From Desulfocurvibacter africanus subsp. africanus DSM 2603 (GTDB lineage Bacteria; Desulfobacterota; Desulfovibrionia; Desulfovibrionales; Desulfovibrionaceae), in the NCBI RefSeq assembly GCF_000422545.1, contig NZ_AULZ01000022.1:1-64000 (forward strand): a DNA stretch of 64,000 nucleotides, read 5' to 3'. This document shows, in pieces, positions 4,897-62,621 of the stretch. The translations under genes were made by a program, and so were the position numbers. The first letter of the stretch is position 1; every line of letters begins with the position of its first letter. Below the pieces are notes generated by a model, which made no database searches, had not been told where the DNA came from, and worked only from the letters and a program-made list of their open reading frames with translations.

Positions 4897-5625
4897 TTAG
4901 TTGACCAGCAGCCAGCCCAGGCAGGCCCCGGTCTCTCCCAGCACGATGGCAGCGCCTAGAAAATCACCATTGAGGCCGGATTGACGCCGGGCCAACCCGC
5001 GCAGGGCCACGGAAGGAACCAGGGCCGTTGCCAGCATGGCCAGAAGCGTCAGAGGACTGACAAGGGCCAGCCCAGGGACCAGGGTCATGCCCATGGCCAG
5101 CAACACCCCACGCGGAGTCGCGCCGGCGACGAAGAGTTGACCCAGGCCGGGCCTGGCCAATTCGCGCTCGCTCATGGCCAGCAGCACGGCCGCCAGCCTG
5201 CCGGCCACAAAGATAAAGGCAGCGGCGGCGAAGGCCTGACGTGCTAAAATCTCGTGCAGCAGCACGATCTGGCCGGTCAGGGTCAGCAGCAGGCCCATGG
5301 CCCCGAAAGCGCCCAGGCGCGAGTCCTTGACGATCTCCCAGAATCGCTGGCCGTCAGCACCCGAGCCCCAGCCGTCGGCTACGTCGGCCAATCCGTCCAG
5401 GTGCAGGCCGCGTGTGGCCCAGAGGTTGGCAATCACGAGCAGCCAGGCCTGAACCCAAGGGGTTGCGGAGAACAGACCAAGCGCCAGAGGCACTACTAGC
5501 AGCCCGCCAAGGACCAGCCCCACGGCTGGCAGCCAGGCCATTGCCGCGGCCAGATCCTCGGGCTTGCCCAGCCTGGCTGGAACCAGACGGGTCAGGAAGG
5601 CCAAGGCTGTGAAAAACCCGCGCAT
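4897..5625 (-). CDS. cobS: Adenosylcobinamide-GDP ribazoletransferase (cobalamin synthase)
   Basis: 242 residues from the ATG at 5625 (MRGFFTALAFLTRLVPARLG), one base after the stop of the upstream gene; an in-frame extension to 5676 would overlap that gene and lacks the family's start. CobS joins adenosylcobinamide-GDP and alpha-ribazole in the last steps of B12 synthesis in the inner membrane. The family motif GLHLDGLADVADGWG (residues ~72-86) carries the acidic residues that bind Mg2+; five to six hydrophobic segments follow. It is translationally coupled to the SAM hydroxide adenosyltransferase. No other cob genes are in the window. Confidence 0.94.
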   Translation of the reverse strand: MRGFFTALAFLTRLVPARLGKPEDLAAAMAWLPAVGLVLGGLLVVPLALGLFSATPWVQAWLLVIANLWATRGLHLDGLADVADGWGSGADGQRFWEIVKDSRLGAFGAMGLLLTLTGQIVLLHEILARQAFAAAAFIFVAGRLAAVLLAMSERELARPGLGQLFVAGATPRGVLLAMGMTLVPGLALVSPLTLLAMLATALVPSVALRGLARRQSGLNGDFLGAAIVLGETGACLGWLLVN

Positions 5626-5626
5626 G

Positions 5627-6475
5627 TCAGCGGCTCCCGGCTGGAAGTTCGAGTGTGACCTCGGCCTCAAGCCCAAGGCCTAGGCTCTTGGCGGCCGAAG
5701 CCTGGTTCAGGGCCAGTTCCATGTAGCCCTGGCTGCCGACAAGAATGCCCAGCTCGTTCGGAGCAAGCTCGGCATAGTGTGTTACGACACGCGCTGCGTG
5801 ACGCGACGGCCCAGGCTTACCAAAGCCCATGGACCGGCCCGCGCCGGACTGAACCCGGACCTGTCCTCCGACTGGCAGGCGCGGCGACCAAGAGGCCGCG
5901 GACAGATTGAGCACGAGGTTGCCGAAGCGGTCGGCGTGCAGCACCGAAGCTATTATTGAGCCGCCTTCTGTACGCGGCTCGGCCCAGCTTCCGCGCACGA
6001 GCGCTGCCGGGTCAAGCTTATGGCCAAGCTCTTCGGGCTTCTCGCCGGCTGCAAGTCGCGCGGCCAGGGGAGTGAACAGATCGCGGCCGTGAAAAGTAGC
6101 CGAGGCCGGCGCGACGGCGGGGCTGACATCGAACAGACGTGAATCTTCCGTTGTAGTGCTCAACAGCAGACTCAGCAGACCGTTGTCCGGAGCCAGGAAG
6201 AAGCTCTGCCCGCATTGCGCCAGGACCATCTTGCGCTCCGAGCCCACGCCCGGATCGACCACGCATACGAAGATCGAGCCTGGCGGAAAGTACGCGGCGC
6301 TGGCCCGCAGAAAGAAGGCCGCCTGGGCCACGCGGTAGGGCTCCACGCCGTGGCTCAGATCCACTACGTGGGCCCTTGACGCGCTATTCGCCAATACGCC
6401 CTTCATCTGGCCAACGTAAGGATCGCCCAGGCCAAAATCCGTGAGCAGGACGATGACGGGAACAGCTTGGTCCAT
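5627..6475 (-). CDS. S-adenosyl-L-methionine hydroxide adenosyltransferase family protein
   Basis: 282 residues of the former DUF62 family, enzymes that use hydroxide to cleave S-adenosylmethionine to adenosine and methionine; relatives are the fluorinase and chlorinase. Visible family motifs are LLTDFGLGDPYVGQMKGV at the N-terminus (Asp and Gly substrate residues), FVCVVDPGVGSERK (about residues 69-82), FLAPDNGLLS and a C-terminal HADRFGNLVLNL block. The stop codon lies one base before the cobS start, and the gene follows the membrane protein at 6499 by 23 bases, suggesting one operon. The physiological reason for the pairing with cobS is not known to me. Confidence 0.9.
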   Translation of the reverse strand: MDQAVPVIVLLTDFGLGDPYVGQMKGVLANSASRAHVVDLSHGVEPYRVAQAAFFLRASAAYFPPGSIFVCVVDPGVGSERKMVLAQCGQSFFLAPDNGLLSLLLSTTTEDSRLFDVSPAVAPASATFHGRDLFTPLAARLAAGEKPEELGHKLDPAALVRGSWAEPRTEGGSIIASVLHADRFGNLVLNLSAASWSPRLPVGGQVRVQSGAGRSMGFGKPGPSRHAARVVTHYAELAPNELGILVGSQGYMELALNQASAAKSLGLGLEAEVTLELPAGSR

Positions 6476-7457: not shown

Positions 7458-8270
7458 TCAGCGGCCCTTGGAGGCCAGCATGTCCCTGCCCGCCGCCAGG
7501 AAGAAGAATACAGAAGCCACGGCGATGATGGATGCGCCCGAGGAAAGGTTGAAATGGTAGGACAGGGCCAGGCCGCCAAGGCAAAAGGCCAGGCTCAGCA
7601 CCACGGAGCGAAGCATCATGCCTGCCAGGGAGCCGGCCTTGCGCTCGGCCAGGTAGGGCGGGATGGTCAGCAGGGCGATGACCAGGATGAGCCCCACCAC
7701 GCGGATGATCATAACCACGCTGACAGCGATCATGGCCAGCAGCAGGTAGTGCAGCACGGTCACGGGCACGCCGCGGGTGCGCGCGAACTCCGGGTCGAAG
7801 GACAGGGCCAGCAAGTGGCGGTACAGGAGCAGCACGAGACCGGTCACGACAATGTCCAGGCCGGCCATGAGCAGCAGTTCGGAGTGCGGCACGGTGAGGA
7901 TGGAGCCGAACAGGAAGGACATGAGCTCCACGTTGTAGCCGGGCGTAAGGTCCAGCAGGATGATGCCCAGGGCCATGCCCGCGGCCCAGGTCACGCCGAT
8001 GACCGTATCGGCCCGCTCGCTGCGGCGCAGGGTGGCAGCGGCCATTAGCCCGGAGGTCATCAGAGTGAAGCCCAGGGTGGTGGGCAACACTGGCCAGCCC
8101 ATGAAAAAAGCCAGGCCGACGCCGCCGTAGGCCGCATGGGCCACGCCGCCCGAAAGGAAAACCACGCGGTTGACCACCACCAGCGCGCCGATGATGCCGC
8201 AGGCCACCGAGGCCAGCGCGGCGGCCAGCAGGGCGTTCTGCATGAAGCCGAAGGACAGGGCTTCAAACAT
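7458..8270 (-). CDS. Zinc/manganese-type ABC transporter permease
   Basis: 270 residues starting at the ATG at 8270 (MFEALSFGFMQNALLAAALA), overlapping the ATPase gene by 8 bases. Member of the ABC-3 (ZnuB/MntB) family: about eight membrane segments, the conserved LVVVNRVVFLSGGVAHAAYG loop near the N-terminus and a late VVGLILVIALLTIPPYLAE segment. Takes divalent metal ions across the inner membrane with its ATPase. No periplasmic binding protein gene is adjacent. Metal specificity cannot be read from the sequence; ZnuB is the best guess. Confidence 0.88.
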   Translation of the reverse strand: MFEALSFGFMQNALLAAALASVACGIIGALVVVNRVVFLSGGVAHAAYGGVGLAFFMGWPVLPTTLGFTLMTSGLMAAATLRRSERADTVIGVTWAAGMALGIILLDLTPGYNVELMSFLFGSILTVPHSELLLMAGLDIVVTGLVLLLYRHLLALSFDPEFARTRGVPVTVLHYLLLAMIAVSVVMIIRVVGLILVIALLTIPPYLAERKAGSLAGMMLRSVVLSLAFCLGGLALSYHFNLSSGASIIAVASVFFFLAAGRDMLASKGR

Positions 8271-9069
8271 GGCGCTTCCCGTGGGGCGGAACCATGATGC
8301 CGGGCAGGCCGTGAGCAAAGGCCATGACAGGGCATTTGTGGCCGTCATGGCCGCCGTACATGAGTTCGAGCATAGCCGTGGTCAGCTCCGGTCCGGGGTG
8401 GTAGTGCAGCCGCTTGTTCACGCAGGCGATGGCCGTGACGCGCGAGGCAACGATGGACAGGTCGTGGCTGACCACGACCACGCTGACCCTGTCGCTCAGT
8501 TCAGCCAGCAGTTCGTAGAAGCAGAAACGCGCATGGGCGTCCACGCTGGCCGTGGGCTCGTCCATGAGCAGAAGGTCGGGCCCAGAGGCCAAAGCGCGCG
8601 CGATGAACACACGCTGGCGCTGGCCGCCGGATAGGGCTCCGATGCGCCGGTCCGCGCAGTCGGTCATGTCCACTAGGGTCAGGGCCTCCATGGCTCTGTC
8701 GCGCTCGGCGGAGGAGACGCGCAGGCCGAAGCTGCGGGCCGTGGCCAGGCCCATGAGCACGACGTCGAGCGCCGATACGGGAAAATCGGGACGGATGTTC
8801 GTGTACTGCGGAACGTAGCCGATGGAGCCACTGGTCTGGGCAGGCGGAGCATTGAATACGCGCACCTGGCCTGCGTCGGGCCGAATGAGTCCCAGGATGA
8901 GCTTGACGAGAGTGGTCTTGCCGCCGCCGTTGGGGCCGAGCACGGCCAAGTAGTCACCGCGGCGCACGGTCAGGTCCACCCCTTCCAGGACCTTGTTGGC
9001 CCCGTAGGAGAAGTCCACGCCCTGCAGCTGGGCGATGATTTCGCCCCTGTCCTTGCCTGCCGTCACCAT
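8263..9069 (-). CDS. Zinc/manganese-type ABC transporter ATP-binding protein
   Basis: 268 residues from the ATG at 9069 (MVTAGKDRGEIIAQLQGVDF). Walker A is GPNGGGKTTL, the signature is LSGGQRQR, Walker B is LLLMDEP and the switch histidine is in VVSHDLS. The C-terminal tail is rich in His/Cys (YHPGPE, MYGGHDGHKCP, FAHG), common in metal-type transporters and possibly metal sensing. The open frame continues to 9123, but that extension would read through a palindrome that looks like an operator, so the internal start is preferred. Operon with the permease downstream. Confidence 0.9.
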   Translation of the reverse strand: MVTAGKDRGEIIAQLQGVDFSYGANKVLEGVDLTVRRGDYLAVLGPNGGGKTTLVKLILGLIRPDAGQVRVFNAPPAQTSGSIGYVPQYTNIRPDFPVSALDVVLMGLATARSFGLRVSSAERDRAMEALTLVDMTDCADRRIGALSGGQRQRVFIARALASGPDLLLMDEPTASVDAHARFCFYELLAELSDRVSVVVVSHDLSIVASRVTAIACVNKRLHYHPGPELTTAMLELMYGGHDGHKCPVMAFAHGLPGIMVPPHGKRHV

Positions 9070-9153: not shown

Positions 9154-10350
9154 TCAGACCAGCGAGAGCAGGTATTCGAGCACGCGCTCCTCGTCCAGGT
9201 AGGGCGCGCTGCGATCGGTAACCAGAGGGGCATCGATGACCGTCAGACCATAGCTCCTGATCTGGTCCAGGTCCGAGGCCGGACCGTAGCTGCCGTGCCT
9301 GGTGTCCACGAGCAGGAAATTGAGCAGGCTCTCGTGCGAAGGGGGCTTGGCGCAGCCGCGCTCCAGGTAGTCTAGCAGGGTCCGCACTTGGTCCGGCAGG
9401 GTCATGCCGCACTGCTCCGGGTCCGTGCCCAGATTGGGGATGTAGACCTTGGGGCAGCGGTTGGCGGCCACGGACTCGCCGACACCGCGCGGCAGCAGGT
9501 TGGCTACCAGACTCGTGTAGAAGCTGCCCATGGGATAGCAGATGAGGTCTGCCCCGGCGATAAGCGAGGCCGTCTTGTCCGGGATCGCAACTTCCGTAGG
9601 CTGCGGATCGTCAGCGTGCTCCGTGAGGAATATGCGTTTGACAGGAACGCTGATGGGCTGGGTTTCCTTGCCGGTGAGCAGATGCTGTCCCATCAGGACG
9701 GAACCGTCCTCCAGCTCGGCCACCAGGTGCAGGGGGTTGTTGACCACGGGCCGCACTTGGCCGCGCGCCTCGACCAGCTTGGAGAACAGATAGATGACCG
9801 GGTCGATGTTCCGGTCGTAGTTGAAGTAGCCGCCCGTGAGGATGAGGTTGCCGATGCTGGCTCCGCGCAGGTCGAACCCCTCGGGCATGCGCTCGACGAA
9901 GAAGCGCAGGTGCGTGCGGATGATCTTGCGCATGGGGTCGGGCACGCGGGCCACCAACTCGTCATCGCCGCGCAGCATGGACTCCAGGCGCTCGCGCAGG
10001 GCCTGTGGAGCGGCGTCACGAGGCAGGCGACAGGCGAACAGCTCGTAGGTCTCGGGAGCGCCCATGACCGTGCGGTCGGCCAGGGCCATGAGCCGGTTGC
10101 GTAGGTCGCCCACGGCCGGCATGTCGAAGGCGGCGCGCAGCTTGGCCGAGGAGCCGCCGGAATCGAAGGGCGTGATGAGGTGGATGGAATTGTGCGTGTA
10201 GTCGATGATCCTGCGCGAAAGGGCCTTGAGGGCCGTGCCGCCGGTGAAGAAGAGCACCTTGGGCCCCAGCTCCGGCGCGCGCAGAAAGCGGGCCAGCTTG
10301 ATGGGGTCGGGAAGGGTGGTCGTGCGGCTGACGAGGATGCGCATAGTCAT
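9154..10350 (-). CDS. CofD/YvcK-related protein of the GAK system
   Basis: 398 residues from the ATG at 10350 (MTMRILVSRTTTLPD); the frame upstream lies inside the neighbouring gene and is a shadow. It belongs to the CofD/YvcK superfamily (2-phospholactate transferase and the UDP-sugar-binding YvcK): VLFFTGGTALKALSR is the phosphate-binding loop, LITPFDSGGSSAKLR and AVGDLRNRLMALAD follow, as in YvcK. Further landmarks are GNLILTGGYF and LICYPMGSFYTSL. I recognise this variant as the CofD-related member of the uncharacterised GAK gene set. It is the last gene of the operon, 13 bases after the HPr-kinase-like gene. Substrate unknown. Confidence 0.85.
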   Translation of the reverse strand: MTMRILVSRTTTLPDPIKLARFLRAPELGPKVLFFTGGTALKALSRRIIDYTHNSIHLITPFDSGGSSAKLRAAFDMPAVGDLRNRLMALADRTVMGAPETYELFACRLPRDAAPQALRERLESMLRGDDELVARVPDPMRKIIRTHLRFFVERMPEGFDLRGASIGNLILTGGYFNYDRNIDPVIYLFSKLVEARGQVRPVVNNPLHLVAELEDGSVLMGQHLLTGKETQPISVPVKRIFLTEHADDPQPTEVAIPDKTASLIAGADLICYPMGSFYTSLVANLLPRGVGESVAANRCPKVYIPNLGTDPEQCGMTLPDQVRTLLDYLERGCAKPPSHESLLNFLLVDTRHGSYGPASDLDQIRSYGLTVIDAPLVTDRSAPYLDEERVLEYLLSLV

Positions 10351-10363
10351 GGTGCTTGCAATT

Positions 10364-11470
10364 CTAGGTCCGGGCTGCCGAGGCGTCCAGGAAATCACGC
10401 AAGTACTTGGCCGCGGCCTCGAAATCCACTCCGCCCGACAACTCAAGCACGGGGCAGCCTCGCAGCAGATCGAGGTAGGACTCGGACGTGAAGCCGGGCT
10501 CCAGCGCGGGACCGTCGGCCTCATAAAACAGGCCCACCTGCTTCATGAAGGCCGGGTGCAGGTCAGGCCGCTTCGCAAGATCCACCTCGCGCACGGACAG
10601 CGGCCCGCCGCCGCGCCGCCAATTGAGCAGCGCAAGACCGGCCAGGCGCGCCTTGAGCCTGTAACGGCCGGGTCCGAAGCATTCGTCGATGAAGGCATCG
10701 TACTTGCGCTCCAAGCTCCACAGAGCGTCCGCGTCCATGGAAAGGAATTCCTCACGCTCCCTGGGCGTGACAACCGTGCGCAAGGATTCGTTGTGCACAA
10801 TGGTGCCGGGGTTTATGCGCGGCATCTTGGCCAAGCCGTACATGGCTAATCCATCAGCCTCGCGGCGGGCAATGACGCGGTCGTTGCTCACGAAATCCGT
10901 GCCCAGGCGCATGACGTGCAGGGCCAGGGTGGACTTGCCCATGCCCGCGAAACCGGCGATAGCCAGTCCCGTGTCGCCGACCGAGACGCCTGCCGCATGG
11001 AACAGCAGACAGCCGCGATTGACCTTCCATTCGATGAAGCGGTTGTTGATGAAGTTGACCACCTGGTTTTCGTTGGCCAGGCAGGGACCCACCGCCAGGT
11101 TGAAACCGCCGCCGAAGAGAAAGAGCATGTTTGTCAGCCGCTTGCGCACTATGCGGCCGTCCGCGAGATCGATGTACTCTTCCTTGATCCAGGCCTTGCC
11201 GGGCTCGGGCTGTTTGGGCATGTAGACCAGGCCCAACTCGGGGCTCGCGGATTCGATGGCCATGATCGCGATGTCGGCTTGGCCTGATGCGCTGCTCAGC
11301 CCTGGTGCGGCCAGGAAGTCGCGGAAATAGACGGCGAGCTTTTCGCGCAGGGCCGAGCTGTTGGTATGTACGCGCACGAGCACCTGGCCGAAGTTCAAGG
11401 CCAATGCGTGTGCAGCGGGATGAGCGTCCAGTAGGGGCGCGGCCAAACCGCGCAGGAAGGCCGTGTTCAA
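10364..11470 (-). CDS. HprK-related kinase (GAK system, type B)
   Basis: 368 residues. The start is TTG at 11470, overlapping the ATP-grasp stop as TTGA, so translation is probably coupled. The C-terminal half carries an HPr-kinase-like P-loop, GFAGMGKST (residues ~173-181), followed by FVSNDRV, which corresponds to the Asp-rich strand of HPr kinase/phosphorylase, and MPRINPGTI. The N-terminal ~150 residues (LALNFGQVLVRV, YIDLADGRIVRKRL) are family-specific. HprK phosphorylates a serine of HPr; this relative probably phosphorylates a protein or small molecule within its own operon, which is inference. Fits the HprK-related kinase B family as I remember it. Confidence 0.85.
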   Translation of the reverse strand: MNTAFLRGLAAPLLDAHPAAHALALNFGQVLVRVHTNSSALREKLAVYFRDFLAAPGLSSASGQADIAIMAIESASPELGLVYMPKQPEPGKAWIKEEYIDLADGRIVRKRLTNMLFLFGGGFNLAVGPCLANENQVVNFINNRFIEWKVNRGCLLFHAAGVSVGDTGLAIAGFAGMGKSTLALHVMRLGTDFVSNDRVIARREADGLAMYGLAKMPRINPGTIVHNESLRTVVTPREREEFLSMDADALWSLERKYDAFIDECFGPGRYRLKARLAGLALLNWRRGGGPLSVREVDLAKRPDLHPAFMKQVGLFYEADGPALEPGFTSESYLDLLRGCPVLELSGGVDFEAAAKYLRDFLDASAART

Positions 11471-12342
11471 GCCAGTTTCCGCAACACGTGTTCCACGAAC
11501 AGACCTGCGGCGTCGATGTCGTTGGCCTCGAGCAGGCCCCGGAAGCCGCCGAAAGCCGAGACTTCATAGACCTTGGGTCCGTCCGGAGTCTCGACCACAT
11601 CCACGCAGGTGAAGTCCAGGTCGAACAGGGCTTGGGCGCGTCCGGCCAGCGCGATTATTTCGGGGCCTGGCTCGCAGGCAGCGTACTTACCGCCCGAGCG
11701 TGTGGTGGTGTTCCAACTGTCTTCGCTGCCCTGGCGGGCGTAGGTGGCCACGTATTCGCCGCCCAGGAAGGTCACGCCCAGGTCGCGGCCCGCGTGGTTA
11801 ACAAACTTCTGAATGTACATGACCTGGTTGCCGCGCGCCTTGAAGACCTCTACCTCGGTCCAGGCGCCCGGTCCGGCCTCGATGACGGTCATGCCCCGTG
11901 CCTTGGTGCTGAACAGCGGCTTGAACACGGCCTTGCCGTAGGTTTCCACCATGGCCACTGCTTCGGCCACGCTTTCGGTGGCCGTGGTCTCGGGCATGGG
12001 AATGTCGCCCAGGCGCAGGCCCACGGTACAGGACAGGCGGTCAACCAGCTTGATGATGCTGCAGGGCTTCGAGAACACGGGCAAGCCCCGTCCGTACAGG
12101 AAACGCAGCATCTCAAGGCGGTCCAGGATGTCCGGAGAGTAGGCCGGAGCGATCTTTTTGATGATCAAGCCGTCGAGCTTGGACAGGTCGTGGCCGCGAA
12201 AGAACACCGTGCCCCTGGTCAGATCCAGGCGCGCCTCGGCCATATCCACCAAAAGCGCGAAGCCAGTGCGCCGGGCCACGGCCTCCACGAGCCGCTGGGA
12301 AGACCAGCCGCGCGGATCGCCGATGACTGCTATCTTTTTCAT
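11467..12342 (-). CDS. ATP-grasp enzyme of the GAK system (RimK-like)
   Basis: 291 residues from the ATG at 12342, with AGGAAGG as ribosome site. An N-terminal Rossmann-like part (MKKIAVIGDPRGWSSQRLVE) precedes an ATP-grasp fold related to glutamate ligases such as RimK: AVFKPLFSTKARGM is the ATP-binding lysine strand, IQKFVNHAGRDLGV the central element, and VYEVSAFGGFRG replaces the usual E-V-N Mg2+-binding motif (EVS here). Such enzymes form an amide or similar bond between a carboxylate and an amine using ATP. Placed between the PhoU-kinase fusion (16 bases upstream) and the HprK-like gene (4-base overlap). Confidence 0.87.
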   Translation of the reverse strand: MKKIAVIGDPRGWSSQRLVEAVARRTGFALLVDMAEARLDLTRGTVFFRGHDLSKLDGLIIKKIAPAYSPDILDRLEMLRFLYGRGLPVFSKPCSIIKLVDRLSCTVGLRLGDIPMPETTATESVAEAVAMVETYGKAVFKPLFSTKARGMTVIEAGPGAWTEVEVFKARGNQVMYIQKFVNHAGRDLGVTFLGGEYVATYARQGSEDSWNTTTRSGGKYAACEPGPEIIALAGRAQALFDLDFTCVDVVETPDGPKVYEVSAFGGFRGLLEANDIDAAGLFVEHVLRKLA

Positions 12343-12358
12343 GATCCTTCCTTGCATA

Positions 12359-13996
12359 TCAATAGGACAGCACGGCGTCAGGCAGCCGGAACTCCTCAAG
12401 GGGACATTCTTCCGCGTGGGCCAGGACCTTCTCCAGCAGGTATACGCCGCGCAGCAGCATGCTCTTGGCGAAGCGTTTGTTGAGCTCGAAGCGCGTGGAG
12501 GTGATGAACGACCTGGCCAAGCCAAGGCAGAGTCGGGCCTCGAAGGTCGTGTCGCCGTGGCGCTTGGCAAAGGCGCGCGCGAACTTGAGGAACTCGGCGC
12601 TCACGTAGTCGATGCGCTCGCGGGCGTCTCGGCTGAAGATGGGCAGCCGGTAGTTGGAGACCAGGAACACCGAGACGTCCTGCAGATAGTCCGAATCCGT
12701 GGAACGGTGCAGATCGATGTAGTGAATGCGTTGCGTTTCGTGGCTGTACACGATGTTGTTGATGTTGAAGTCGCCGTGGATGAAAACGGTGAAGGGCGAG
12801 GCCACACGGCTGCAAAGCTCGCTGGCCCGCTCCATGAGCGCATCGGTGGAGGGCGCGACTATGCCGCAGAAGGCGCGTCGTCCGGTCTGAAAATCGGGAT
12901 GCAGATGGTAGACGTCGGTCATGCGCGCCAGCGCCTGACGCATGAACGAGGCCGGCGCGGGCTGGTTTTTGAGGGTGGCCTCCCATAGTTCGCTCACGGT
13001 CTGGGTGACCAGGAACAGAGCGTTCTCCAAGACGTCGTGCTCGGCCGTGAGCACCAGGTCCTGGAAGGTGCAGCCGCCCAGGTATTCGATGAGCAGGCTG
13101 ACCGAAGCGCCCTCTTCCTGCAGGGCCTGCACCTTTGGCGGCAAACCGGGCATGATGGCTTCCCAGCGCTCGATGCTGGCCTTTTCCTGCAGCAGCTTCT
13201 TGCGGTTGCCTTCCTTGAAGATGAGGCTCTGCTTGACGCCTTTTTCGTCGTCCTGGGGCTTGTTGACCTTGCCGATGCGACAGCCCGAGCGCGTGCCCCA
13301 GATGGACTCGAATTCCACGTGAGCCGGCACCGCGTCCTCGCCCCTGGATCCCAGGGTCTCGCGCAGGGCGTTGTACTGGTGGATCTTGAACTTGTCGCCG
13401 GTAATGGAAAAGATGATGGCCTCGCCCACATTCAACAGCGCGTCGCCCATGCGCTCCAGATAGCGGAAGATGAACAGGGTGGTGACCAGGTTGCCAGTCT
13501 CGCTGCCCGAGCGCAGCTCGCCCAGAATGCGGTCGAACTGCTGCTTGTACATGGAATCCAGGGTGAATTCCGCGCGGCAGATCTTGAAGGCCAGGGACAT
13601 GTCCTGCCTGGTCAGGGCCGAGTGCACCCGATCCAGGGCGGTCAGCACCTCCTGGAAGAATGGCCGGTAATCGTACTTCTGAAAGAACGCCGGCTCGGAA
13701 AGGTGCGGCGTCTGGCGCGCCACGTTCACGCAGTGGTCGGCTAGCCGTTCAAGGTTGGAAGTGACAACATTGAGGGCCCTGATGCGGTCCACGTTGCGCT
13801 TGCCGAGGGGCTGCCTGTGGATGTGCGAGAAGCAGTCGTTCTCGATGACGCTCTTCAGATTGTCGATGTAATCGTCACGACTCTCGATGGACTCGATGGA
13901 CACGGTTCCTGGAGTGTCGAGAAGTCGCAGAGTGCTCTCCACCTGCTTCATTACCTCCAGGATCATGAAGCGGAAATTTTCTTCCAGAACCTTCAT
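12359..13996 (-). CDS. PhoU domain fused to aminoglycoside-phosphotransferase-like kinase
   Basis: 545 residues. Residues ~1-215 form a PhoU-type helical bundle with two repeats whose signature helices are NVVTSNLERLADHCVNVA (about 76-93) and FRYLERMGDALLNVGEAI (about 177-194). Residues ~225-545 are an APH/choline-kinase-like domain: SLIFKEGNRKKLLQEKASIE (Lys/Glu region), the catalytic HGDFNINNIV (His407, Asp409, Asn414) and the DLH metal motif at ~428-430. PhoU proteins bind metals and modulate phosphate uptake, so the fusion links a phosphate-signalling fold with a small-molecule kinase. Its ATG overlaps the amphi-Trp stop (ATGA). I see no stop or shift at the junction; the fusion looks genuine. 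Confidence 0.88.
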   Translation of the reverse strand: MKVLEENFRFMILEVMKQVESTLRLLDTPGTVSIESIESRDDYIDNLKSVIENDCFSHIHRQPLGKRNVDRIRALNVVTSNLERLADHCVNVARQTPHLSEPAFFQKYDYRPFFQEVLTALDRVHSALTRQDMSLAFKICRAEFTLDSMYKQQFDRILGELRSGSETGNLVTTLFIFRYLERMGDALLNVGEAIIFSITGDKFKIHQYNALRETLGSRGEDAVPAHVEFESIWGTRSGCRIGKVNKPQDDEKGVKQSLIFKEGNRKKLLQEKASIERWEAIMPGLPPKVQALQEEGASVSLLIEYLGGCTFQDLVLTAEHDVLENALFLVTQTVSELWEATLKNQPAPASFMRQALARMTDVYHLHPDFQTGRRAFCGIVAPSTDALMERASELCSRVASPFTVFIHGDFNINNIVYSHETQRIHYIDLHRSTDSDYLQDVSVFLVSNYRLPIFSRDARERIDYVSAEFLKFARAFAKRHGDTTFEARLCLGLARSFITSTRFELNKRFAKSMLLRGVYLLEKVLAHAEECPLEEFRLPDAVLSY

Positions 13997-14280
13997 ACAT
14001 CATTCGCCCTTTTGCCGGGCTTGAGCACCAGGGGGTCCTGTGTGTTCTGCCCCTCTTGAGGGCACTCCTTCCAGCGCAGCTTGATGGCCAATTTGCGTTC
14101 GTCCTCGCTGACCTTGGCCTCGAAGATAAAGTCGATGAGCCCCTGGGGCGAAAGCACGAGCGTCTCGCCCTTGTGGCTGATTTCGATATGGCCTTGGCGG
14201 ATGCCCTCGGTGAGGCTTTCCAGGTAGGCCACTATGGCCTCCCTGTCCTGCAGGGCGTCGTAACGGAACCGGTTGGACAT
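13993..14280 (-). CDS. amphi-Trp domain protein (GAK system)
   Basis: 95 residues, small and soluble. The sequence contains EAIVAYLESLTEGIRQGHIE, then GETLVLSPQGLIDFIFEAKV and the late Trp in KLAIKLRWKE, which matches the amphi-Trp domain (named for an amphipathic strand pattern ending in a conserved Trp) found in halophiles and in GAK loci. The ATG at 14280 has GGAAG upstream. The tail overlaps the PhoU-kinase start by 4 bases. It may be a carrier or substrate protein for the enzymes of the operon; that is inference. Confidence 0.82.
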   Translation of the reverse strand: MSNRFRYDALQDREAIVAYLESLTEGIRQGHIEISHKGETLVLSPQGLIDFIFEAKVSEDERKLAIKLRWKECPQEGQNTQDPLVLKPGKRANDV

Positions 14281-14344
14281 GCACGCTTCCTTAGCGGGTT
14301 CGGTGGTGGTGCGGCCGTATGGACCGCGATGCGTCTGGCCTGCC

Positions 14345-15547
14345 CTATGAGGTCAGTCGGGCGCGATATTCCTCGATGATGGAGGCTCGGCTGACGCCTT
14401 GAACGATGAGGTGCTTGCTGATGGACAGATCCTCCCAAGCAGGCTGCAGGCCAACCTCGCGGCCTCCTTTTTCGGGGTCGCGCAGTTCCGGGGCCTTGAG
14501 CTTTTCACCCATGTGGCAGTCATCGCCCATGAACACGAGCACGGGCCGGTCAGTGCGTCCGCGCAACCTGTTCTGGCGCTGCACCGCGGTGATGAGGAAC
14601 TCGGTGTACTCGCGCGACTGCGGGTTCCAGACCTCGATGCCGTCCACGTCATAGTCGGCCAGCAGGATGGGCCAGAACTGCTCGGGGTGCGGGATGACGA
14701 TGCCCGCGCCCAGGGAGCGGGCCTCCTCGATGATCTCCGAGGCTCTGTAGAAGTAGGTCAGGGAGAAATGCTCCTTGACCACTTCCTTGGCCGCCTTGAG
14801 GAAAACCTGGGCCTTGTTTACGATACGGTCGTCGTATAAAGCGCGCAGCTCCTCGAAGAAGTTGCTCACGAGCTTGTTCTTGATGGATTCCTTGGGAGTC
14901 GTCGCCCAGTTGTTCTCGATGAGCTGCTGGAGCTTGGCCACGTGGATGCGCGTGAAGGCGACGATATCCTCGTCGGAGTTCGTCTTGCCGGCGGCTCGCT
15001 GAACGCGGTCCTCGAAGATAGGGTCCAGCACAGTTTGAATGTATTCGAACAGTTGCGAGGAGCGGTACTTGAAGGTGTGCGCCAGCATGTTCCTGAGCAC
15101 CGTGGCCTCGCGCACCTTGGCCTCCTCGAAGTGCAGAAGAAGCTGCACCTTGCGCTTGAAGCCGCGGGAGTAGCAGTCCACCTCCACACCGGCGAAGCCG
15201 CCCAGGCTCAGGAGCGTGTTGTGCTGCGTGGGGATGATGAGCTGGTCGCCCCGGTTGGGATAGAGCTTCTGCATCCGGCCCACGATGAGATCCATTGGCA
15301 CGTGTTCCGGGTGCCAGTGCACGGCCAGGATCTCTTCCTGCTGGGGGAAGCTGCGCTCGGGGACGAGCACGCGCTGGCGCTCCACCTCGGTCAGTTCGCT
15401 GCTGGTACAGCGCAAGAAGGCCTCCTGATCCCAGGAGGTGACCTCCCGGGGGATGGCGTCCAGTTCCAGGCTTTGGCAGCGGCCGTCCCGGTTTTTGTTC
15501 ACGCTGAGGAGTCCCATGGTATGAGAATGTGCAGACAAACGGTCCAT
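14345..15547 (-). CDS. PHP-superfamily metal-dependent hydrolase, first gene of the GAK operon
   Basis: Up to 400 residues. The PHP metal ligands appear in order: HWH (residues ~77-79, in EEILAVHWHPEHVP), His in IPTQHN (~109), Glu in VEVDCYS (~122), His in VIPHPEQFW (~287), GIEVWNPQSREY (typical PHP strand, ~303) and the closing D-x-H in GDDCHMG (~343-345). These bind a trinuclear metal centre in phosphoesterases and DNA-polymerase PHP domains. A helical insertion (~140-260) separates the early and late motifs. The true start may be the ATG at 15517. Substrate unknown; 64 bases before the amphi-Trp gene, same strand. Confidence 0.75.
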   Translation of the reverse strand: MDRLSAHSHTMGLLSVNKNRDGRCQSLELDAIPREVTSWDQEAFLRCTSSELTEVERQRVLVPERSFPQQEEILAVHWHPEHVPMDLIVGRMQKLYPNRGDQLIIPTQHNTLLSLGGFAGVEVDCYSRGFKRKVQLLLHFEEAKVREATVLRNMLAHTFKYRSSQLFEYIQTVLDPIFEDRVQRAAGKTNSDEDIVAFTRIHVAKLQQLIENNWATTPKESIKNKLVSNFFEELRALYDDRIVNKAQVFLKAAKEVVKEHFSLTYFYRASEIIEEARSLGAGIVIPHPEQFWPILLADYDVDGIEVWNPQSREYTEFLITAVQRQNRLRGRTDRPVLVFMGDDCHMGEKLKAPELRDPEKGGREVGLQPAWEDLSISKHLIVQGVSRASIIEEYRARLTS

Positions 15548-15605
15548 GTCACAATATCATTGAGCACGGATCTGCTGTCTTGAGCCCGCCAGCCAGGGCA
15601 TAACC

Positions 15606-15842
15606 TTACTGGCTGGTCCGTGCCCGCCTGTAGCGGGAGTGGCACTCCTTCCCGAGGCTGTCAAGTTCCACGGCCGCCTGGACACGGCGACGATGCAGCC
15701 CTCGCCTGCCGCCAAAGGCCAGCTTGTCGCCCAAAACCTTTAAAGGGCCTTTGCCTGATCGAGGACCAAGACAAAGCGCCTGCATTTCTGCCCAGCTATG
15801 GCTACTCGGCAGCATGGTCCCTCGCCACGAGAGGAAAAGCAT
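15606..15842 (-). pseudogene. Probable IS3 transposase fragment
   Basis: A 78-codon minus-strand frame whose middle reads LKVLGDKLAFGGRRGLHRRR, resembling the helix-turn segment of IS3-family OrfB (the pattern ...R-x-x-YGYRR-...). A similar stretch (CTTTGGC context) occurs in the decayed IS3 copy at ~61.1 kb. The rest of the element is missing, so this is a small remnant in the 515-bp gap between the GAK operon and pitA. Confidence 0.4.
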
Positions 15843-15927
15843 TCTCGTGCATACGCGGTTTAGCCCGTGAGCCCTGACAGATACTGGAAAGGAATGGACG
15901 AGGCGCGATCAAGAATGTTACGAGCAG

Positions 15928-15945
15928 ATCTCGAAATGGTGACAG
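15928..15945 (-). promoter_or_regulatory. Pho-box-like sequence in the GAK/pitA divergent region
   Basis: On the minus strand this reads CTGTCACCATTTCGAGAT: a perfect CTGTCAC half-site, four-base spacer and a weaker second half. The same layout occurs upstream of phoA (28916-28933). It is 118 bases upstream of pitA and about 380 bases upstream of the PHP gene. Confidence 0.3.
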
Positions 15946-16062
15946 ACTAGGCTGGCATCAAGGCCAGCGAGCTCCATGGCTCCCGGGTGGGAGCTTTTTC
16001 CTTGTCTTGCCAGATTCGCGCGGCTGCGGAGAACCGTGCCGCGTTTCCTCTCGGGAGTGGAA

Positions 16063-17298
16063 ATGGATTTCTATGATCTGTTTTTCTATCTGTCCATGGG
16101 CGGCGGCTTGCTTATGGCCTTCGCCCTTGGCGCCAACGACGTGGCCAACTCCATGGCTTCGGCCGTGGGCGCCCGGGCCATTACCGTACGACAGGCAGTG
16201 CTCATCGCCGCCCTGCTCAACTTCGTCGGCGCGGTTTTGCTCGGCTCGCAAGTTACAGCCACCATCAGCAAGGGCATCATCGATCCGACGGCCATCACCG
16301 ACCCGCGCGTGATGACGCTGGGCATGTTCTCCTCCCTGCTGGCTGCCGGGGTTTGGGTGCTCGTGGCCACGCTCACCTCGCTGCCCGTGTCCTCCACGCA
16401 TTCCATCGTGGGGGCCATCCTGGGTTTCGGCTTCCTGGTCGGAGGGCCGGAGGTGGTGAACTGGCTCAAGATGGGCGGCATCGTCATGTCCTGGATCATC
16501 TCGCCCTTCTTCGCGGCCATAATAGGATTCCTTGTCTTTTCGCACATCCGCAAGACCATCTTTGTCAGCCACGACTTTATCCGCCAGTCCAAGAAATGGG
16601 GAGCTATTTGGATGGCCCTGACCTGCGGGCTCATCATGATCTCCTTTTTCTACAAGACTCCTTTCGGCGAGCGGTTGGATTTGAGCCTGGGCGCCGCCGC
16701 GGCCGTGTGCCTTGTCGTCATGGCCGCGGCCTGGATAGTCACCCGCCGCGGTCTGGAGAAGCTCGTGCCCGACCCGGCCGCAGGCGCCGAAGGCGTGGAG
16801 CAGGTCTTCCGCAAGATGCAGATATTCACCTCGTGCTATGTGGCCCTGTCCCAGGGCGCCAACGATGTGGCCAACGCCATCGGTCCCGTGGCCGCGGTGT
16901 ATGTGCTGGCCAAGACCGGCATGCTGGCGACCAAGGCCGAGGTGCCTATCTTCATGCTCGTGATCGGCGGCCTGGGCATCGCCCTGGGCATCGGCTTGCT
17001 GGGACACAAGGTCATGGCCACGGTGGGCGAAAAAATCACCACCCTGACCAACACCCGCGGCTTTGCCGTTGATATCGGCGCGGCGACTACGGTGCTTTTG
17101 GCCTCCAACCTGGGCCTGCCCGTGTCCACCACCCACGCGGCCGTTGGCGCGGTCACGGGCGTGGGCCTGGCTCGCGGCTTCAAGGCCGTGGATTTCGGCG
17201 TGCTGGGCCGCATCGTAATCTACTGGGTTTTGACCGTGCCGGCGGCGGCCTTCACCAGCGTGCTCATTTATCGCATTCTTGACTGGATCGTGAGCTAA
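16063..17298 (+). CDS. pitA: Inorganic phosphate transporter, Pit family
   Basis: 411 residues from the ATG at 16063, with GGGAG 8 bases upstream; the open frame starts earlier but without membrane-protein character. Two internal copies of the Pit signature are present: FALGANDVANSMASAVG near the N-terminus and SQGANDVANAIGPVA in the second half, each paired with a LPVSSTHSIVGA / LPVSTTHAAVGAV motif. About ten membrane segments. Imports metal-phosphate coupled to protons or Na+ in the inner membrane. Forms an operon with the DUF47 gene 53 bases downstream and is divergent from the GAK operon. Confidence 0.93.
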   Translation: MDFYDLFFYLSMGGGLLMAFALGANDVANSMASAVGARAITVRQAVLIAALLNFVGAVLLGSQVTATISKGIIDPTAITDPRVMTLGMFSSLLAAGVWVLVATLTSLPVSSTHSIVGAILGFGFLVGGPEVVNWLKMGGIVMSWIISPFFAAIIGFLVFSHIRKTIFVSHDFIRQSKKWGAIWMALTCGLIMISFFYKTPFGERLDLSLGAAAAVCLVVMAAAWIVTRRGLEKLVPDPAAGAEGVEQVFRKMQIFTSCYVALSQGANDVANAIGPVAAVYVLAKTGMLATKAEVPIFMLVIGGLGIALGIGLLGHKVMATVGEKITTLTNTRGFAVDIGAATTVLLASNLGLPVSTTHAAVGAVTGVGLARGFKAVDFGVLGRIVIYWVLTVPAAAFTSVLIYRILDWIVS

Positions 17299-17351: not shown

Positions 17352-18029
17352 ATGCGTTTTCTGCGTCTGCCCATGTTCGGGCTGCTGACCCCCACGTCGC
17401 CACTGGACGGGCTCATCGACCACTACCAGAAGATCCACGCCTGCGTGGACCTCATCCGCGAGTCACTGGAGTGCTACCTCTCAGGCGGCACATGCCGGGA
17501 GTTCCAGGAACTGGTGGAACAGGTGGACAAGCTCGAGAATGAAGCGGACAAGATCAAGCGCTCCATCCGCAACAAAATGCCGCGCCGGTTGCTCATGCCC
17601 GTGGACAAGACGCTCTTCCTCAACTACACGAGCGCCCAGGACAACATCCTCGACGCGGCCCAGGAGGCTGTGTCCTGGCTGGCCATGCGCGCCGTGGATG
17701 TGCCGGCGGAGCTTCAGAAGCCCATGGTGCTCTTCATCGACGAGGTCATGACCACCGTGACTATGCTCGGGCCGGCCCTGGAGTCCACCATCCGCTTCAT
17801 CTACGTCGAGGAGCTGGACCGCTCCGCGGTCAAGGACAAGCTGCGTACCGTGCGCCGCCAGAAGGACAAGGTCTTCAAGGCCAAGGGTCCGCTCATCTCG
17901 GCCATCTACAACCAGGACCGCGACTTCAAGGACATCTACCAGCTCATCCATTTCATCCAGCGCATGGACGACATGAGCCACAGTGCAGGCAACTGCGCCG
18001 AGATACTGCGCGCCATGATCGCCAAGTAG
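17352..18029 (+). CDS. DUF47 (PhoU-like) Pit accessory protein
   Basis: 225 residues, all-helical, related to PhoU. Landmarks are LVEQVDKLENEADKIKRSIRNKMP (first helix pair, read here in parts: EADKIKRSI, LLMPVDKTLFL), then DNILDAAQEAVSWL and the closing FIQRMDDMSHSAGNCAEIL. DUF47 proteins usually accompany Pit transporters and are thought to regulate them. GGAGG ribosome site 6 bases before ATG. With the PhoU domain in the GAK operon, this gives two PhoU-like proteins within 6 kb. Confidence 0.9.
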   Translation: MRFLRLPMFGLLTPTSPLDGLIDHYQKIHACVDLIRESLECYLSGGTCREFQELVEQVDKLENEADKIKRSIRNKMPRRLLMPVDKTLFLNYTSAQDNILDAAQEAVSWLAMRAVDVPAELQKPMVLFIDEVMTTVTMLGPALESTIRFIYVEELDRSAVKDKLRTVRRQKDKVFKAKGPLISAIYNQDRDFKDIYQLIHFIQRMDDMSHSAGNCAEILRAMIAK

Positions 18030-61736: not shown

Positions 61737-62621
61737 TTATCCCCGATTCTTGCCTAGCCTCATTGCAATCCTGTAGAATAATCTCTCCAGAAATCCAGGG
61801 TCTTTGTAAGGTAAAATAACATTATTGGATCTTTGTCGCCAATTCGAATTCAAGCAGATCCCAATAAAAGAGCGAGCCAAATAGCTTTCTGTAATTCCTC
61901 GATAACGAGCCTCATTGTACTGATTCCTGTAATGAAAAACCTTAATCAAGGGTTCTATCGGAATAATGGGTATAGTCTTATCTTTCTCCAGCCAGAACGT
62001 GTACCAACTGAACTCGAAAGGAGATTCATCAAGTATATCGAAATATGTAAGAGAATGTAAGTCCAAAAACTTAACTTGAAATGCATTAAGCACCTGTGAT
62101 GATAATGTTATCAGACCGTGAGCTGTCCTTACAACTGGATCGTCCAATAAAAATCTTCGACGAATATGCAAAAGATGCTGTTGACGCTCATCCCAGTTAG
62201 GGTAATGCGGATCAGCTTGTAGTTCCTTATCTTGTGCTAATATCGTATATGGAATGTCACTGATATGTAAAAAATCTTTTACAAAAAAATTACGTATGAA
62301 ATATGAATCAGAATCTACACAGAAGTAATTCTCAGCAACCTTTGTCTTCCAAAAACTAAGTTTGATTATTTGTTGATTAATATACCCAGCCGAGAGCCAT
62401 TTTGGCTTTTCAGATATTAAATTATCACATACATCTTCATCAGCAATATAATGTACATAATCTGTTCCGATTACTGATTTAAATAGAAACAAGTCAGCGC
62501 TTGGCACTGTTAAAAAGAGCGGAATTGAATCTTTGTTATACAACTTGCAAGTATCAACCAAATGTTTGGCTGCGAGAAGATCACGTCTATAGGACTTACA
62601 TAGCAGAACTAATTTGTGCAT
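61737..62621 (-). CDS. DUF6492-like putative glycosyltransferase
   Basis: 294 residues. LVLLCKSYRRDLLAAKHLVD, NKDSIPLFLTVPSAD, NYFCVDSDSYFIRNFF (a D-x-D-like motif), TAHGLITLSSQVL match the DUF6492 family, which resembles nucleotide-sugar transferases of capsule loci. No firm biochemistry is known to me. AT-rich. Confidence 0.7.
   Translation of the reverse strand: MHKLVLLCKSYRRDLLAAKHLVDTCKLYNKDSIPLFLTVPSADLFLFKSVIGTDYVHYIADEDVCDNLISEKPKWLSAGYINQQIIKLSFWKTKVAENYFCVDSDSYFIRNFFVKDFLHISDIPYTILAQDKELQADPHYPNWDERQQHLLHIRRRFLLDDPVVRTAHGLITLSSQVLNAFQVKFLDLHSLTYFDILDESPFEFSWYTFWLEKDKTIPIIPIEPLIKVFHYRNQYNEARYRGITESYLARSFIGICLNSNWRQRSNNVILPYKDPGFLERLFYRIAMRLGKNRG

Follow-up and report, generated by a model that had tools for sequence, protein, structure and literature searches.

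Probable role of GAK, a bacterial gene set found beside phosphate uptake genes in Desulfocurvibacter africanus, as a phosphate-starvation module

GAK is a widespread bacterial gene set that was named without a known job. One GAK operon lies in Desulfocurvibacter africanus subsp. africanus DSM 2603, on a 64-kb stretch of contig NZ_AULZ01000022.1 (positions 1-64,000; hereafter the window), where its six minus-strand genes face a phosphate transporter gene, and the question is what such a set does. We propose that GAK is a phosphate-starvation module, a reading to which we give a probability of about 0.85. The phosphate link is strong, and the chemistry is something that we infer; the whole statement, in which the module also works by modifying proteins of the amphi-Trp family, is tentative and falls somewhat short of an even chance.

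The operon starts with a gene for a PHP-fold metal-dependent phosphoesterase (14345-15517 or 15547, minus strand, with two possible ATGs), followed after 64 bp by the gene of a 95-aa amphi-Trp small protein (13993-14280; TIGR04354, 78.5 bits, cut-off 31). The latter overlaps by 4 bp a gene for a fusion of a PhoU domain with an APH/EcKL-like kinase domain (12359-13996), whose scores for PF01895 (82.1 bits), PF02958 (EcKL, 35.7 bits) and PF01636 (APH, 25.2 bits) are all above the Pfam gathering scores. A gap of 16 bp separates it from the gene of the RimK/MptN-like GAK ATP-grasp ligase (11467-12342; TIGR04356 grasp_GAK, 466.7 bits, cut-off 300), which overlaps by 4 bp the TTG-started gene of HprK-related kinase B, or HprK-B (10364-11470; TIGR04355 HprK_rel_B, 508.6 bits, cut-off 200). 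After a further 13-19 bp comes the GAK CofD/YvcK(GlmR)-like gene (9154-10350 or 10344; TIGR04357 CofD_rel_GAK, 554.7 bits, cut-off 340). All six are on the minus strand, at the places and with the overlaps and gaps that a preliminary description of this DNA had reported.

That description had also assigned the operon to GAK, and a search with the NCBIfam models of the system (TIGR04354-TIGR04358: amphi-Trp, HprK_rel_B, grasp_GAK, CofD_rel_GAK and XXXCH), whose names state no function, bears this out: the grasp_GAK, HprK_rel_B, CofD_rel_GAK and amphi-Trp models all pass their cut-offs in this one locus. Its term "complete" has to be qualified, as the window operon, a nearly complete copy of GAK, lacks the usual XXXCH gene and a second amphi-Trp gene (the first 30 kb were labelled with our own profiles). 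The described divergent phosphate genes are likewise present. A Pit-type phosphate transporter gene (16063-17298, plus strand, alternative start 15976; PF01384, 367.3 bits) is followed by the gene of its DUF47/PhoU_div partner (17352-18029, plus strand; PF01865, 89.7 bits). The pair lies 515-545 bp from the GAK operon with the Pit start at 16063, or 428-458 bp with the start at 15976, across a divergent intergenic region (15548-16062) that holds no Pho-box-like repeat.

The spread of the set was surveyed in two ways. The HprK_rel_B cut-off is passed in 123/297 genomes of the class and the CofD_rel_GAK cut-off in 24/297 genomes of the phylum. A scan of named genomes with an ATP-grasp alignment retained as loci the best 80 of 500 confirmed relatives; by their titles these 80 are mostly Desulfovibrio- and Desulfobacter-type bacteria, and they include metagenome-assembled genomes (MAGs) labelled Zixiibacteriota, Phycisphaerae, Nitrospinota, Nitrospirae, Myxococcales/Polyangia, Atribacteria and Ectothiorhodospiraceae. 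Together with 60 fetched loci and the window, this gave 141 loci, which were labelled with our own profiles in place of BLAST clusters, which merged amphi-Trp, HprK and CofD. Genes were called by codon usage; longest-ORF (open reading frame) calling gave many antisense ORFs in GC-rich genomes.

Gene content was counted in 88 non-duplicate loci that contain the ATP-grasp gene and at least 4.5 kb on either side (one duplicate was dropped). Within 6 kb of the ATP-grasp gene, the PhoU-kinase gene was found in 84/88 loci, amphi-Trp and HprK in 83/88 each, PHP in 73/88, CofD in 66/88 and XXXCH in 55/88, and a second amphi-Trp gene followed HprK or CofD in 43/88. The exact order PHP, amphi-Trp, PhoU-kinase, ATP-grasp, HprK, CofD recurs in 56 of the 88 loci, so the gene order of the window is not due to chance. 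Since 84 and 73 of the loci hold them, the PhoU-kinase and the PHP protein are frequent GAK members that stand outside the named GAK models. Compared with those models, the window operon therefore has these two genes in addition and lacks XXXCH and the second amphi-Trp.

Some loci depart from this plan. In L063-L066, L085 and L086, GAK is split into two operons, a PHP, amphi-Trp, PhoU-kinase, HprK run and an ATP-grasp, HprK run, with CofD apart, and HprK-B is duplicated there because of the split; the second run carries amphi-Trp and PhoU-kinase in L065 and L085. Decaying copies were also seen: PHP, PhoU-kinase and CofD are in pieces in L114, and an in-frame stop splits HprK in L062 (9071-10240).

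The position of GAK relative to phosphate genes was compared with chance in 49 genomes of 43 genera, out of 56 genomes with loci (G005, G006, G307, G316, G341, G351 and G556 were omitted). Distances of up to 8 kb between 59 GAK anchors and the genes for PstB (above the curated cut-off) or Pit were evaluated against 20,000 simulations; the null assumes uniform positions, and the anchors include HprK and CofD copies outside full operons, their number being kept in the null. PstB was found at most 8 kb from a GAK component in 9 genera against 0.29 expected, and Pit in 3 genera against 0.24 expected. Either gene was near in 14/49 genomes and 11/43 genera, against 0.52 genera expected and a simulation maximum of 4. 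Proximity of pit is not confined to the genome described first, as pit is also near GAK in the genera labelled g3 and g7.

Several loci place a PhoU gene, identified with our own profile, in direct line with GAK genes. In L066, L073, L084, L087, L088, L103 and L138 (L088 and L131, being of equal length, are taken as one contig) it lies immediately 5' of XXXCH, HprK or CofD and points the same way, and in L189 a co-directional PhoU gene is upstream of a GAK gene with two genes between, which makes eight distinct loci in all. NCBIfam models confirm PstB in L066, L103 and L138, and in L066 also PhoU. Three lineages, namely L066, L092 and the near-identical pair L095 and L186, have HprK outside a full operon and beside pst genes. 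In L103, a CofD gene without HprK and ATP-grasp follows pst-phoU; an MgtE-type magnesium transporter gene (L103:10528-11880) continues this run.

Neither HprK_rel_B nor grasp_GAK has a match in the g3 genomes G002, G004, G008 and G009, and g3 genome G278 has HprK_rel_B above the cut-off. Genes read as RluA-like, DUF47 and Pit (Pit also by search) follow the CofD gene retained in these four genomes. In the g3 loci L097-L100, L119 and L120, the surviving CofD_rel_GAK gene belongs to a YidC-Jag-MnmE-like cluster, and RluA-like, DUF47 and Pit genes again come next.

Two further genes recur within 8 kb of GAK. A PIN-PhoH2 helicase gene was found there in 8 genera against 0.18 expected, and a PHP-glycosyltransferase gene in 6 genera against 0.16 expected, whereas the negative control, PhoH1, was found in 0 genera against 0.25 expected. 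PhoH1 and PhoH2 were split by score, a division of our own; the one PhoH2 that was checked scored 336 bits, under the cut-off of 680. Fragment rows were dropped from these neighbour counts (two of G228 in one search; two of G228 and one of G067 in the other). The model nearest to the PHP-glycosyltransferase is GlcNAc-phosphatidylglycerol synthase, at 158 bits under a cut-off of 480. Fusions of about 760-850 aa that join a PHP domain (by reading) to a GT4 glycosyltransferase stand beside GAK in L061, L066, L072, L089, L094, L095 and others; in L095 the fusion precedes the PhoU-kinase in the same run, replacing the usual PHP gene.

The regions upstream of GAK operons were scanned for Pho-box-like repeats. 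The available part of PMC3333781 gives the half-site of the D. vulgaris PhoB box as (c/t)GT(n)AC with a stated spacer of 4 bp; we scanned for pairs of YGTNAY, which relaxes the last base to C/T, at 13 spacers in 108 non-identical GAK upstreams. The pair with a 5-bp spacer (11-bp period) occurred in the operon orientation in 12/108 upstreams, compared with 0-2 for each of the other twelve spacers and 0.3 in shuffles; the published 4-bp spacer gave 2/108. On the opposite strand, spacer 5 gave 5/108 and the other spacers 0-2. The GAK half-site agrees with the D. vulgaris box, and the enrichment lies at a spacer of 5 against the 4 stated in that source. In control units, spacer 5 was found in 16/667 and 15/667 on the two strands (other spacers 0-3); we read four of the 16 strict matches as phoB or pstS genes. 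A position weight matrix (PWM), fixed from 15 sites picked by eye upstream of phoB/pst genes, scored at least 11 in 31/108 GAK upstreams. This compares with 1.4% of Markov shuffles and with 62/692 controls (9%; Fisher p = 1e-7), among which are real Pho genes and intergenic regions shared with GAK. By our count, 27 of the 31 matches are in the operon orientation.

The two PhoU-type ExxxD motifs of the PhoU-kinase are present in 32/32 and 31/32 aligned sequences, and the kinase motif HGDxNxxN in 32/32. The protein scores 92.5 bits with the PhoU model TIGR02135, under the cut-off of 130.25. It shares with PhoU/Pst and DUF47/Pit control a PhoU domain with two ExxxD motifs and pst, phoU, pit and DUF47 neighbours, and differs from them in the fusion to a kinase domain and the score under the model's cut-off. 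APH-like kinases usually act on small molecules. The solved relatives of the ATP-grasp protein in the PDB are mostly of RimK and LysX type, and its runner-up models are MptN (148.9 bits) and the RimK family (102.6 bits), both below their cut-offs.

HprK-B has a Walker A motif in 34/34 sequences and, where HPr kinase has the motif DDR, an NDR motif in 34/34. The first Asp of DDR is the catalytic base of HPr kinase. The HprK/P signature [ILM]E[IV]RG[ILMV]G[IV][ILM], as given in the accessible part of PMC2937029, was found in 0/34 HprK-B sequences. The same portion of that source reports that HprK/P kinase activity is inhibited by inorganic phosphate (Pi), and a phosphate-reading HprK-type kinase is therefore plausible by analogy.

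The CofD-like protein matches five PDB sequences at E <= 0.01, all of UPF0052/YvcK kind or unnamed. CofD proper is not among these relatives, and no F420 CofD model is among the NCBIfam matches at E <= 0.01; with the YvcK model TIGR01826 the protein scores 120 bits, under the cut-off of 196. GlmR is described in the part of PMC10128056 available to us as an accessory uridyltransferase that supports UDP-GlcNAc supply. When D40/D41 of Listeria GlmR are mapped through the DDGG of the B. halodurans homologue, the first is Asp and the second is Ser in the GAK family, which has DSGGSS in 33/34 sequences and DDGGS in 0/34.

The first gene of the operon was described earlier as a PHP-type hydrolase, although its product matches 0 Pfam and 0 NCBIfam families. 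Its AlphaFold2 model (mean predicted local distance difference test score, pLDDT, 89.7) resembles the PHP phosphoesterases 3e0f/3o0f with a VIA Z of 15.8 and a root-mean-square deviation of 3.6 Å over 242-245 residues; RNase AM (9etk) and 2yb1 give VIA Z values of 14.5 and 14.1. The metal-type motifs HxHPE, TQHN, PHPE and GDDxH are present in 30/30 aligned sequences and G[VI]ExD in 29/30. Because of this fold match and the kept motifs, the assignment as a PHP-fold phosphoesterase is confirmed at the level of a predicted structure despite the lack of a family model. RNase AM and the nucleotide-acting PHP phosphoesterases (9etk, 2yb1, 3o0f) are like the window protein in fold (Z 14-16) and metal motifs; the window protein differs in having 14-18% identity to them and a long helical stretch of its own near residues 132-268.

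The amphi-Trp protein is modelled as one helix and four strands (pLDDT 86), and its F5 and W70 are invariant in 40 aligned sequences. Foldseek gave no match at E <= 0.001 and the best VIA Z was 3.2, which is not proof of a new fold. Sequence matches (E 0.01-1) to proteins such as cullin and fatty-acid-binding proteins were judged to be chance. The N-terminal part of XXXCH proteins shows kinship with amphi-Trp in a single profile comparison (hhalign probability 95.9; E 5e-9), and the C-terminal end reads K-x-x-C-H-x-x-Y-K, with Cys in 98% and His in 100% of 62 sequences. A profile of seven XXXCH sequences gave weak PDB matches (E 0.1-1), 23/30 of them to cytochromes c or c' in alignments that cover the CH region; as a lead only, the C-terminal K..CH..YK region (e.g., L061:14971-15501) weakly resembles cytochrome c' minus one heme-binding Cys. 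The genome of the window itself has a stand-alone XXXCH-domain ORF of 98 aa on contig C24 (L201:1480-1776), which adjoins a ParA-like gene and has no evident amphi-Trp part.

Two single-ORF fusions join GAK components: HprK with CofD in a Zixiibacteriota MAG (L149, 779 aa) and HprK with amphi-Trp in a Nitrospina MAG (L198, 477 aa). They favour a physical partnership of the kinase, the small protein and the CofD-like enzyme. The fusions and the kinship of XXXCH with amphi-Trp are clues to PARTNERSHIPS.

A working order of events can be proposed from these parts. PhoB would switch the operon on, or the operon would sit by pst/phoU, in some relatives, and the window operon faces pit-DUF47; the positions and repeats are observed, and the regulation is what they suggest. 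The PhoU domain, given its intact motifs, would take its cue from Pst/Pit-PhoU sensing and control the APH-like kinase domain. HprK-B, whose P-loop may accept either ATP or Pi like that of HPr kinase, would phosphorylate the amphi-Trp proteins, a family of putative HPr-like signal or carrier proteins whose partnership with the kinase is suggested by the fusions. The RimK/MptN-like ATP-grasp enzyme would add an amino acid, with glutamate the likely one, to a carboxylate on either the amphi-Trp carrier or a small molecule. The CofD/GlmR-like protein could be the enzymatic or regulatory output, through nucleotidyl or phospho-transfer, and the PHP phosphoesterase would undo phosphoester bonds. The net effect would be that phosphate uptake or phosphorus-sparing metabolism is adjusted at low phosphate.

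Both chemistries suggested in the preliminary description, making a phosphorylated molecule and modifying amphi-Trp as a carrier, are candidates here. For the chemistry, we prefer post-translational work on amphi-Trp family proteins, with a small-molecule pathway as a close rival, because a kinase is fused to one such protein, two to three of them are often present, and CofD or HprK is sometimes missing. A more specific version is rather unlikely: a phosphate relay independent of the phosphotransferase system, in which Pi-responsive HprK-type and PhoU-gated kinases would write on amphi-Trp, the ATP-grasp enzyme would tag it with an amino acid and the GlmR-like enzyme would read it, as a counterpart of the HprK-HPr-GlmR carbon circuit.

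A number of observations weigh against the proposed module, in its phosphate part or in its mechanism. No pst or pit gene is adjacent (8 kb) to GAK in 32/43 genera, and stray copies also lie away from phosphate genes (CofD in L106, a second CofD in L074, HprK in L064 and L086). The Pho-box-like repeat is present in a minority of GAK operons (12/108 by the strict pair, 31/108 by PWM), and the controls are raised too (16/667 and 62/692, respectively). The p-values overstate independence, since the 108 upstreams include close relatives (e.g., L063/L124 and L108/L111). A matrix refined by expectation-maximisation on 16 pst/phoB upstreams was rejected: it drifted off the repeat, gave no GAK enrichment (Mann-Whitney p = 0.37) and placed 4/139 units above the 98th control percentile. 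The window operon has no repeat upstream, either exact or by PWM (best score 5.7); the sole exact match in the 64-kb window is at 62095, where 0.66 are expected by chance. The early hint at phosphate-status control finds support across the family, through pst/pit adjacency in 11 genera, PhoU-to-GAK runs, PhoH2 and PHP-glycosyltransferase neighbours and upstream repeats in a minority of operons, but gains no Pho box in the operon from which it came. On the mechanistic side, HprK-B may differ from HPr kinase in its working, because the HprK/P signature is missing and Asn replaces the first Asp of DDR. D41 of GlmR, one of an adjacent Asp pair in a catalytic triple mutant, maps to Ser in the GAK CofD-like family. 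Ser9 of amphi-Trp is conserved in 87% of 99 sequences and is Ala in the window protein, so it is ruled out as a required HPr-like phosphosite there. Each GAK fusion is one case, and both come from MAGs.

Other explanations have to be weighed against the same evidence. The kinases, the CofD-like transferase, the ATP-grasp ligase and the PHP phosphoesterase may instead make a small phosphorylated or nucleotide-linked molecule under phosphate shortage, by an F420-like logic, with amphi-Trp and XXXCH as binding or scaffold proteins. This is possible, though less probable than the statement with protein modification: five of the six operon proteins are enzyme-like, APH-like kinases are mostly small-molecule enzymes, and MptN, the better-scoring of the two runner-up models of the ATP-grasp protein, is a glutamate ligase of cofactor synthesis. 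According to the accessible part of PMC10128056, the product made by a relative of the CofD-like protein is nucleotide-linked as well. A linear pathway would nevertheless sit oddly with CofD in 66/88 and HprK in 83/88 loci near the ATP-grasp gene (they may sit elsewhere in the genome), one of the fusions couples a kinase to a small non-enzymatic protein, and CofD proper is absent among the PDB relatives of the CofD-like protein.

Alternatively, GAK could be a general metabolic or envelope regulator, steering UDP-sugar flux and lipid remodelling in a GlmR-like way, for which phosphate limitation would be one trigger. Among solved structures, the CofD-like protein is closest to the YvcK/GlmR kind, the PHP-glycosyltransferase, with its below-cut-off score for GlcNAc-phosphatidylglycerol synthase, is near GAK in 6 genera, and GlmR aids UDP-GlcNAc supply (PMC10128056, in part). 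We regard this as quite improbable, as the GAK core is tied to phosphate by the PhoU domain inside a member found in 84/88 loci and by several HprK and CofD copies that stand outside a full operon beside pst or pit genes. Highly improbable is simple hitch-hiking, in which phosphate genes would be adjacent through conserved housekeeping clusters without shared function; the g3 CofD gene in a yidC-jag-mnmE-like cluster (names by reading) and the 32/43 genera with no pstB or pit within 8 kb would fit it. Against this stand the 11 genera versus 0.52 expected, which come in several unrelated arrangements, the spacing specificity of the repeats found upstream and the zero count of the PhoH1 negative control.

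The proposed phosphate module recalls two known systems besides PhoU/Pst control. HprK, HPr/Crh and GlmR (YvcK) form a carbon-control circuit in Firmicutes. GAK is like it in combining a P-loop kinase of HprK type with small proteins and a YvcK-like protein, and HprK/P is sensitive to Pi in the excerpt of PMC2937029. GAK differs in its link to phosphate genes and in the HprK/P signature, and no HPr or Crh homologue is among the six operon proteins by Pfam or NCBIfam. Because that signature was looked for and found in none of the sequences, the likeness is an analogy and not a membership. In F420 tail assembly, CofD goes with a CofF/MptN-like ATP-grasp ligase. GAK shares this pairing of a CofD superfamily protein with a glutamate-ligase-like ATP-grasp enzyme, but its CofD part is nearer to YvcK.

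Other features of the window lie around these genes. Downstream of CofD, after a gap of about 84 bp and on the same strand, a zinc/manganese-type ABC transporter pair (ABC_tran and ABC-3; 7458-9069, minus strand) could be co-transcribed with it; a zinc ABC permease, Dde_2210, appears in the D. alaskensis G20 phosphate-fitness table in the part of PMC5193443 available. Among the phosphate-fitness genes in that part, including the phoU homologue Dde_2835, none was matchable to GAK. Genes for S-adenosylmethionine (SAM) hydroxide adenosyltransferase and CobS (4897-6475, minus strand) also lie downstream of the operon on the same strand. Near the pit start, a terminator-like hairpin with a T run (15978-15995, plus strand) is a possible pit leader or attenuator; the 151 nt around it fold no better than shuffles (fold z-score -0.35), and Rfam gave no match in the window at gathering scores. 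PADLOC anti-phage models matched 0/6 operon proteins at E <= 0.001, and relatives of the ATP-grasp protein were absent in a scan of viral contigs.

In a literature search on GAK, its component terms and Desulfovibrio phosphate, which left most subscription papers outside, no paper was found that treats GAK or assigns it a function. Two papers carry one of the terms each, namely XXXCH in a phage genome paper and "CofD-like" in an Enterococcus proteome. The window operon is one further member of a named set, and the phosphate assignment is the new part. With it, an orphan gene set gains a stated condition, phosphate starvation, together with candidate substrates and simple tests, and can now be tested in the handling of phosphate shortage. 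If the relay reading is true, sulfate reducers and several other groups would have a type of phosphate control that is new.

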